From Deltaproteobacteria bacterium (GTDB taxonomy: Bacteria; Desulfobacterota; GWC2-55-46; UBA9637): a stretch of 49,131 nucleotides of DNA. The notes under the pieces were generated by a model, which saw only the letters and a list, made by a program, of their open reading frames with translations, did not search any database and was not told the origin of the DNA. This document shows positions 2,634 to 45,550 of this stretch, piece by piece. Location of the stretch: positions 1-49,131 of the forward strand of contig JACRNJ010000068.1 in NCBI GenBank assembly GCA_016219285.1. Direction: 5' to 3'. Numbering within the stretch: position 1 is the stretch's first letter; each line of letters starts with the position of its first letter. A program made the translations under genes and the position numbers.

Positions 2634-3701
2634 TTAAACCATATTCACTATTGCGCCTGCCATTTCATCAAGGGCAACAACCTTATCCGCAAGCCCTTCA
2701 TCAACAACTGCCTTTGGCATGCCGTATACAACACAACTCGCCTCATCCTGAGCAATACTCTTTCCCCCTGTTTTCTTTATCGCCCTTATGCCTTCCCTGC
2801 CGTCGCTCCCCATGCCTGTCATGATTACACCAAGAGCCCTTCCGGGGAAACATTCAGCCACTGATAAGAATGAAATATCTACTGATGGTTTATATATTGA
2901 ATCTCCGGAATTATTGTCCATGCTCAAAACCACCTCAATTGCGTTTTTCCTCTTAAGTCTCGTCTGCACCCCCCCGGGGGCAACAATTGCCCTTCCTGCT
3001 TTAATAGTATCGCCGTTAGATGCCTCTTTCACCTCTATATTACAGATGCTGTTCAACCTTTCAGCATACGGACCTGTAAAATTCACAGGCATATGCTGGA
3101 CTATAAGTATCCCTGCCGGAAAATCATGGGGAAGCATGGTCAATACATCCTGCACAGCCATTGGACCGCCTGTGGACGCTCCGATGGCAACAACTGCTAT
3201 CTTCTGACTCACAAATCTATCTTTAAGATATACAGGGCGGGCTATGCCCACCGATAAATGGCGGGCACAGCCCGCCCTACCGCTTACAGCTAGTTTCTTT
3301 CTGGATACTGTCTTGATTTTGGATATAAGTTCATCCTTGATTTTCACAATATTCACAGAAAGTTCTCCAAGATTTTTTGGTATGTAATCAAGGGCGCCAA
3401 ATTCAAGCGCATCAAATGTTGCCTGAGCCCCCTCTGCAGTCAAAGAAGAAAGCATAAGCACAGGAGTAGGTTTTTTCTCCATTATTACCTTTAATGCCTC
3501 CAGCCCATTCATACGCGGCATTTCTATATCAAGGGTTACAACATCAGGTGAGAGCGCCATGACCTGCTCAACCCCCTCCATGCCGTCCCTTGCTGCGCCG
3601 ACAACCTCTATTTCAGGCTCGCTCTCCAGCAGCCCTTTTATAGCCTTACGCATAAAGGCTGAATCGTCCACAATAAGAACTCTTATTTTTTTATTCTGCA
3701 T
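2634..3701 (-). CDS. cheB: Chemotaxis response regulator protein-glutamate methylesterase CheB
   Basis: CheB removes methyl groups from chemoreceptors and is activated by phosphorylation from CheA. Residues 1-120 are a receiver domain with DDSAFMRKAI, the phospho-acceptor in VVTLDIEMPRMNG and the KNLG lysine. The catalytic domain (about 165-350) shows the Ser in GASTGGP, the His in QHMP and the Asp in TGMGSDGREG. The linker at about residues 140-157 is odd: it is encoded by a GC-rich palindromic repeat that is also found outside genes, so the repeat has been absorbed in frame. The gene lies 70 nt downstream of cheA. Confidence 0.97.
   Translation of the reverse strand: MQNKKIRVLIVDDSAFMRKAIKGLLESEPEIEVVGAARDGMEGVEQVMALSPDVVTLDIEMPRMNGLEALKVIMEKKPTPVLMLSSLTAEGAQATFDALEFGALDYIPKNLGELSVNIVKIKDELISKIKTVSRKKLAVSGRAGCARHLSVGIARPVYLKDRFVSQKIAVVAIGASTGGPMAVQDVLTMLPHDFPAGILIVQHMPVNFTGPYAERLNSICNIEVKEASNGDTIKAGRAIVAPGGVQTRLKRKNAIEVVLSMDNNSGDSIYKPSVDISFLSVAECFPGRALGVIMTGMGSDGREGIRAIKKTGGKSIAQDEASCVVYGMPKAVVDEGLADKVVALDEMAGAIVNMV
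3231..3283. repeat. GGTGGGC-type palindromic repeat inside cheB
   Basis: This is a double palindrome of the family built on TAGGGTGGGC...GCCCACC, here as CAGGGCGGGC...GCCCGCCCTA. Other copies lie at 15946-15970, 32762-32838 and 33081-33104. It sits in the non-conserved linker between the receiver and esterase domains of CheB, where an insertion would be tolerated. Confidence 0.8.
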
Positions 3702-25201: not shown

Positions 25202-25346
25202 TTAAGGACACTTTCTCATTTCAAGTGGGTAACTTTCCTCTCCCCCACCCTAACCCTCCCCCGTCAAGGGGGAGGGTAAATTATTTGCATCCCGTCAAGG
25301 GGGAGGGAATATTATTTACCCACTCATTATGAGAAAGAACCATTAA
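25202..25346. mobile_element. MITE-like element A with nested palindromes
   Basis: The terminal inverted repeats are 25202-25232 and 25316-25346, starting TTAAGGACACTTTCTCA and ending TGAGAAAGAACCATTAA, and match at roughly three quarters of positions. The inside holds two GTCAAGGGGGAGGG palindromes. No coding sequence is present. It abuts the ATG of the TMTC-like gene. Confidence 0.7.
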
Positions 25347-44890: not shown

Positions 44891-44987
44891 CCGCCTTGAC
44901 AGAAAATGGCAATGCATCTTATGAGTCAATAGGTTGCCTGCTCTAAAAATGCAGGTGTATTTTCGGTTCTTCCGGCTTTTGTGTGGG

Positions 44988-45030
44988 TTCCCTCCCCTTC
45001 AAGGGGAGGGTCAGGGTGGGGATGGGGTAA
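44988..45030. repeat. GGGGAGGG palindrome, left of DUF559 gene
   Basis: CCCTCCCCTTCAAGGGGAGGG followed by TCAGGGTGGGGATGGGG. The repeat at 45402-45446 is the same type in inverted orientation. Confidence 0.85.
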
Positions 45031-45041
45031 AGAGGTTTGTT

Positions 45042-45455
45042 ATGATCGGTCAGACAAACAAAACGATTCTTAAAAACAAACTTCAACGTAATCTTCGAAG
45101 GAACATGACCGATGCCGAGCACCCGCTCTGGCAGGCTCTGCGCAACAAACAAATGGCAGGGCTTAAGTTCCGACGGCAACACCCATTTGGGGACTTTATC
45201 CTGGATTTTGTGTGTCTTAAAAAAAGGCTGGTGGTTGAGTTAGACGGCGGCCAACATTCAGAAAACGAGGCTTCGGACAAAGTGCGCACCGAGAAACTTG
45301 TAAATGCAGGTTTTCGCGTCCTCCGGTTTTGGAATCATGAAGTTCTCGGTCAGATTGAAGCGGTTAAGGAGAAAATTTGGCTGGAATTGCAGAAAGGATG
45401 CGCACCCCACCCTCACCTTAATCCTCTCCCTGAGGGAGAGGAAGACCTAAGTTGA
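45042..45455 (+). CDS. DUF559 endonuclease-like protein
   Basis: The 137-residue protein belongs to DUF559, which has a restriction-endonuclease-like (Vsr-type) fold. LRRNMTDAEHPLWQALRNKQMAGLKFRRQHPFGDFILDFVC is shown in parts, and the active-site-like stretch is VVELDGGQH followed by FRVLRFWNHEVL. Start ATG at 45042 has AGAGG 6 nt upstream. The last residues (PHPHLNPLPEGEE) are encoded by a GGGAGAGG palindrome. The gene is bracketed by inverted copies of one palindrome family, which suggests a link between the enzyme and the repeat. Such proteins are common and untested. Confidence 0.92.
   Translation: MIGQTNKTILKNKLQRNLRRNMTDAEHPLWQALRNKQMAGLKFRRQHPFGDFILDFVCLKKRLVVELDGGQHSENEASDKVRTEKLVNAGFRVLRFWNHEVLGQIEAVKEKIWLELQKGCAPHPHLNPLPEGEEDLS
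45402..45446. repeat. GGGAGAGG palindrome, right of DUF559 gene
   Basis: CACCCCACCCTCACCTTAAT followed by CCTCTCCCTGAGGGAGAGG. It encodes the DUF559 C-terminus and is inverted relative to 44988-45030. Confidence 0.85.
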
Positions 45456-45550
45456 AGAGTTAGATTTAGATTATAAAGAGAGCGCCGGCTTACCCACAGG
45501 AAAGCCGGAAAAACCGTATTTTCTTGGTTTATGGGACTATTTCTATTCTT

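Follow-up and report, generated by a model that had tools for sequence, protein, structure and literature searches.

Genes for DUF559 nucleases are bracketed by inverted palindromes in many bacterial phyla and may encode cognate enzymes of BoxC/TM repeats

Comparison of loci showed that the bracketing of DUF559 genes by inverted palindromes is real and general, and that it extends over many phyla. In the window, by which we mean the whole 49,131-nucleotide stretch of deltaproteobacterial DNA analysed here, the two palindromes fit the BoxC/PIT/TM repeats in their architecture of a hairpin and a mirror third strand. BoxC/PIT/TM repeats have been described in E. coli, including K-12, and in more than 260 other prokaryotes, with an origin stated to be unclear and no mobility gene found nearby (Holder et al. 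2015, PMC4666352). Like the window units, they consist of a polypyrimidine-polypurine hairpin with a mirror third strand; in E. coli, units of types A and B are arranged in inverted pairs, in high copy, at intergenic and unstable loci, and the BoxC motif forms a triplex in vitro as an isolated strand (PMC4666352). DUF559 is unmentioned in that paper (PMC4666352), whereas here the units bracket a nuclease gene, and the open-access literature searched contained no report that connects DUF559 with BoxC or with palindromic repeats. From sequence relations, and by analogy with repeat families that have their own enzymes, we infer that DUF559 may be the cognate nuclease of BoxC/TM repeats.

The window DUF559 gene and its two BoxC/TM units

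The first-pass annotation had described a palindrome 5' of the gene and an inverted relative lying over its 3' end and coding for its tail. Both were found, in opposed orientation, as follows.

44989-45021, plus strand: left BoxC/TM unit, hairpin outermost and G-rich head toward the gene
45042-45455, plus strand: DUF559 (PF04480) nuclease gene, 137 aa, with the E..D..H..D residues conserved
45405-45442, minus strand: right BoxC/TM unit, inverted, spanning the 3' end of the DUF559 gene and coding for a Pro-rich tail

The left unit is built of the hairpin CCCTCCCCTTCAAGGGGAGGG (CCCTCCCC-TTCAA-GGGGAGGG), the spacer TCA and the head GGGTGGGG. The right unit consists of the head CCCCACCCTCACC, a spacer and the hairpin TCCTCTCCCTGAGGGAGAGGA (CCTCTCCC-TGA-GGGAGAGG), and in the DUF559 frame it reads ...PHPHLNPLPEGEEDLS. 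Thus both GC-rich hairpins are outermost and both G-rich heads point to the gene. Shuffling of the window sequence gave an expectation of 0.01 occurrences for the left pattern and 0.00 for the right. Folding energies of the DNA hairpins were -10.4 (left) and -9.2 kcal/mol (right), with z of about -2 to -2.5, and DNA folding predicted the hairpin alone. Both units fit the published BoxC/PIT/TM definition (stem of 6-15 with no more than one mismatch when over 7, short loops and a mirror third strand; PMC4666352), and in each, 7 of the 8 head positions mirror the purine arm. Rfam gave a single hit, to whalefall-1, which fell below threshold and was rejected, and no DNA similarity to plasmids was found.

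The window protein matched the DUF559 profile PF04480 with 138.9 bits (E 7e-41), exceeding the curated cut-off of 20.6. Its predicted structure (pLDDT 86) resembled, in this order, the solved Neisseria DUF559 protein 3HRL, the homing endonuclease I-Bth0305I (3R3P; sequence E 6e-5, Foldseek E 9e-5) and, as a weaker fold match, Vsr (Foldseek E 0.03). Invariant E, D, H and D residues fit an EDxHD-type active site. Both I-Bth0305I, an EDxHD enzyme, and Vsr are like DUF559 in fold and catalytic residue pattern, but differ from it in that the DUF559 gene is bracketed by repeats and lies in neither an intron nor an intein. Caulobacter VsrA also holds a DUF559 domain, and a link to DNA damage has been reported for it; it differs from the present case in having been studied as a mismatch-repair-type nuclease, with no repeats reported (PMC12907096).

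Inverted palindromes flank DUF559 genes in many phyla

DUF559 matches were present in 106 of the 297 genomes of the phylum. We scored inverted repeats by an unbiased comparison of upstream and downstream flanks, with a cut-off of at least 36. This score was reached by 45 of 86 DUF559 loci of the phylum compared to 2 of 197 control ORFs at the same loci (P=3e-30). In a set of 80 named loci from Proteobacteria, Desulfobacterota, Nitrospirota, Planctomycetota, Cyanobacteria, Omnitrophota, Spirochaetes, Chloroflexota and others, the corresponding counts were 50/76 and 2/121 (P=1e-18). The case against the first-pass annotation would be that palindromes are as common near other genes; they were far commoner at DUF559, strong flanking inverted repeats being found for 95 of 162 DUF559 genes and for 2 of 128 controls with free intergenic flanks (P=5e-31). 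A structural unit detector placed a TM unit within 260 bp of 83 of 90 DUF559 genes. Both flanks bore units in the expected orientation at 50 of 90 DUF559 loci of the phylum and at 38 of 78 in the second set, whereas the background per 260 bp was approximately 0.01-0.02 units for each orientation (0.019 per side in the phylum set). The Pro-rich tails anticipated on other DUF559 proteins were also seen, in 58 of 149 DUF559 ORFs.

Palindrome class follows nuclease lineage

The palindromes at DUF559 loci fall into classes (CTCTCCC, CCTCCC and CCCCCTTT). Upstream and downstream palindromes agreed in class at 85 of 132 DUF559 loci, where 37 were expected. When class was mapped on the DUF559 protein tree, 18 changes were needed compared to 39 after shuffling, and none of 200 shuffles was as low; the tree has few columns and weak forks, and clustering alone is claimed from it. 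Nearest DUF559 relatives from another genome, at no more than 70% identity, shared their class in 80 of 128 cases (48 expected, shuffled maximum 65). Paralogs inside one genome retain differing classes (for example in G237, G278 and G006), and in the window genome the second DUF559 gene (contig C69, 805-1116) has a different class, with CCCCCTTAGTAAAGGGG upstream and CCCCCTTTTCTAAGGGGG downstream. These comparisons showed that palindrome class follows nuclease lineage, at the level of sequence, which supports a cognate relation between DUF559 and its palindrome.

Repeat content was consistent with such a relation at the genome level. Genomes with a strong DUF559 match contained a median of 17 TM motifs, compared to 3 in those without (P=8e-12), although the reversed-pattern control for this count is a poor one, the motif being close to mirror symmetry. 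For the CCCCCTTT pattern the control is clean, and repeats of this class reached a median of 20.5 in genomes with CCCCCTTT-class DUF559 versus 0 in genomes with GC classes only (P=1e-5). At least 10 TTT-class repeats were counted in 15 of 231 genomes without strong DUF559, and two genomes (G298 and G301) have TM pairs and no DUF559. Base composition and shared ancestry could explain some of what is seen in the tree and at the genome level.

The outer ends of the window cassette are of ISL3 type

A repeat search revealed a 25-nt inverted repeat outside the window palindromes, which the first-pass annotation had overlooked. The features of these outer ends, and a second element of the window, are as follows.

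44957-44964, no strand: target site duplication, left copy GTATTTTC, 8 bp, identical to the right copy
44965-44988, plus strand: left outer terminal inverted repeat GGTTCTTCCGGCTTTTGTGTGGGT, ISL3-type, 24 bp
45492-45515, minus strand: right outer terminal inverted repeat, ISL3-type, 24 bp, matching the left at 21/24
45516-45523, no strand: target site duplication, right copy GTATTTTC, 8 bp, perfect
25206-25341, no strand: second window element, no gene, with a TM unit, a partial hairpin and related terminal repeats

The whole element measures 551 bp from terminal repeat to terminal repeat, and 8 bp is the target duplication length of ISL3 elements. In 3000 shuffles of the flanks, the combination of an 8-bp duplication and a terminal match of at least 16/24 did not occur. 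A remnant in another genome (L321 in G061) carries an ISL3-family transposase fragment bounded on both sides by the window terminal repeat, with 2 and 4 mismatches. The window element shares the 24-bp ends of this type and the 8-bp duplication with ISL3 insertion sequences, but differs from them in that it holds a nuclease gene and two TM units and lacks a transposase: no ISL3 transposase is encoded within the 551 bp, and elsewhere in the genome the enzyme is represented only by a C-terminal fragment. With terminal repeats, an 8-bp duplication and no transposase of its own, the window copy is a non-autonomous ISL3-type element at most. On this reading of its ends, the window DUF559-BoxC/TM cassette is carried as cargo by a non-autonomous transposon of ISL3 type, and its ISL3 ends point to insertion by a DDE transposase supplied in trans. 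The minimal transposon proposed in the first-pass annotation is therefore retained in outline, except that the palindromes are not its ends, the ISL3-type repeats and the duplication lying outside them. Two relatives (G299 and G302) are unoccupied at the window site, with approximately 27-32 bp in place of approximately 610 bp, but the junction is inexact and the intergenic sequence has also diverged.

Across loci, an 8-bp duplication together with terminal repeats was found at 4 of 174 DUF559 loci compared to none of 447 control ORFs. Two of the four are convincing, the window locus (L001) and L062, which has the duplication CTTTTTAA and a terminal sequence in common with the window; the other two are unconvincing. 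Window-type terminal sequence also adjoins DUF559 at L068, L073 and L081. Most of the DUF559-TM cassettes among the 174 loci examined are without outer terminal repeats. The right end of the second window element is GGTTCTTTCTCATAATGAGTGGGT on the minus strand, and this element shows no clear duplication.

Some dispersed TM pairs of the window's genus are absent from relatives

Several pairs of cassettes are alike only from hairpin to hairpin, with unrelated outer flanks (for instance L087/L095 and L001/L111). In addition, genomes of the window's genus contain dispersed TM pairs with heads outward and hairpins inward, which are 93-100% identical to the cassette ends. Relatives lack three of these pairs at the orthologous positions, and two of the three show duplications, one of 9 bp (AAATACCCA) and one of 12 bp (CAAATCTTTTAT). 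Because the outer sequences of the inserted pairs are unlike the ISL3 ends, more than one transposase seems to be involved, and the 9- and 12-bp duplications with other terminal sequences at two TM pairs indicate that the repeat may be carried by different transposases. An origin of the dispersed pairs as cassettes from which the gene was simply deleted was rejected for this genus, since their heads face outward; it may apply in E. coli, where 4 of 5 pairs have heads inward.

Some further observations concern individual loci. At L193, L008 and pair 2 of L009, TM pairs lie within short elements with another terminal repeat (AGCGT...AATAGGAGACC). In dispersed TM pairs, the end formed by the left unit (GGGGTAAAGAGG) is often just 5' of a likely start codon (L176, L178 and L004), where it could be a source of ribosome-binding sites. 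In Legionella anisa, a DUF559 element (L268, approximately 2829-3477) has inverted repeats of approximately 148 bp starting with TTAGGTAATGTCCCTAAA, and the same genome contains 10 DUF559 matches, many of them decayed. The Legionella elements (L268 and L301-L320), with terminal repeats of approximately 150 bp and many copies, were rejected as independent insertions, because most L. anisa copies have longer repeated flanks in common.

E. coli ycjD runs into BoxC

The E. coli gene ycjD (b1289), already recognised as a PD-(D/E)XK nuclease (PMC1189080), belongs to DUF559 and continues at its 3' end into BoxC sequence. BoxC is present on the 3' side only, and another unit is found approximately 170 bp away. 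In K-12 (1351407-1351760), YcjD has the C-terminus RRSPSP, because the reading frame enters the BoxC sequence. The gene is carried by about 3364 of 5426 E. coli genomes. It was rejected as a clean presence/absence site, as an efflux operon occupies its place in strains without ycjD. E. coli BoxC pair 1+2, absent from CFT073 and from an O169 strain, was likewise set aside for want of a clean target duplication.

Discussion

We consider it an evenly balanced proposition that these loci are selfish cassettes of the form [BoxC/TM unit]-DUF559-[inverted BoxC/TM unit], in which DUF559 would be the cognate nuclease of a widespread repeat family, analogous to RAYT and REP. Somewhat more tentatively, and a little short of even, we suggest that DUF559 proteins may be the missing enzymes behind BoxC/PIT/TM repeats across bacteria, with an EDxHD nuclease that would recognise the hairpin or triplex and drive spread or retention of the repeat, in a system that would run parallel to REP-RAYT and be unrelated to it. 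In the proposed mechanism, the EDxHD-type nuclease would recognise the TM structure, be it hairpin or triplex, and nick or cut DNA there; cutting would favour the copying or retention of TM-bearing DNA through repair, in a homing-like manner, and DDE transposases in trans, ISL3 in this case, may carry the cassette to new sites. Several observations count against this reading: the other terminal sequences and the 9- and 12-bp duplications of two inserted TM pairs, the small number of DUF559 loci with an 8-bp duplication and terminal repeats, the genomes with TTT-class repeats or TM pairs that have no strong DUF559 or none at all, and the one-sided BoxC of E. coli ycjD.

The likeness to REP-RAYT (TnpAREP) and REPINs lies in inverted palindromes that bracket an enzyme gene and are also dispersed, and in the class-specific pairing of enzyme and palindrome. 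The enzymes differ, DUF559 being a nuclease of PD-(D/E)XK fold and RAYT an HUH transposase; no HUH (Y1) transposase is present at the window locus, where DUF559 is the only bracketed gene. The palindromes differ as well, those of the window having a G-rich third strand, whereas the REP/RAYT hallmark is a GTAG or CGTC tag at the palindrome foot (PMC3733652), which was not found at the foot of the TM units in the unit sequences.

The chief rival, which we judge unlikely, has DUF559 genes and TM repeats gathering independently, as passengers, in the same non-autonomous DDE transposons (ISL3 and others), with no action of the nuclease on the repeat. The ISL3-type ends and 8-bp duplications of the window element and L062 agree with it, as do the TM units without DUF559 in the second window element and the 9- and 12-bp duplications at other TM pairs. 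Against it, most DUF559-TM cassettes are without outer terminal repeats, yet across many phyla their units adjoin both ends of the gene with a constant orientation, and palindrome class follows nuclease lineage.

That DUF559 is itself a transposition enzyme with the TM palindromes as transposon ends, as the first-pass annotation had it, appears improbable. In the window, the palindromes are enclosed by the outer terminal repeats and the duplication, the dispersed pairs of the genus have the reverse arrangement to the cassette, and we know of no PD-(D/E)XK enzyme that by itself joins DNA strands. What speaks for it is that cassette likeness stops at the hairpins in several pairs, and that Tn7 TnsA uses a PD-(D/E)XK fold (PMC1189080). 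Least probable is a Vsr-like host repair nuclease, as proposed for Caulobacter VsrA, whose gene is tolerated beside structure-forming repeats: the fold similarity to Vsr and the DUF559 domain of VsrA (PMC12907096) favour it, but I-Bth0305I is the nearer structural match, DUF559 is patchy, multi-copy and has decayed copies, unlike a housekeeping gene, and a repair role does not predict cognate palindrome classes.

A gene consistently bracketed by BoxC, with cognate palindrome classes, gives BoxC/PIT/TM repeats a concrete candidate enzyme. This is the first tie between an enzyme and BoxC that we found in the open-access literature; it makes the spread of BoxC testable and, through E. coli ycjD, testable in a laboratory strain. 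If the cognate-nuclease reading is true, dispersed bacterial palindromes with dedicated nucleases would have a second, unrelated enzyme class.
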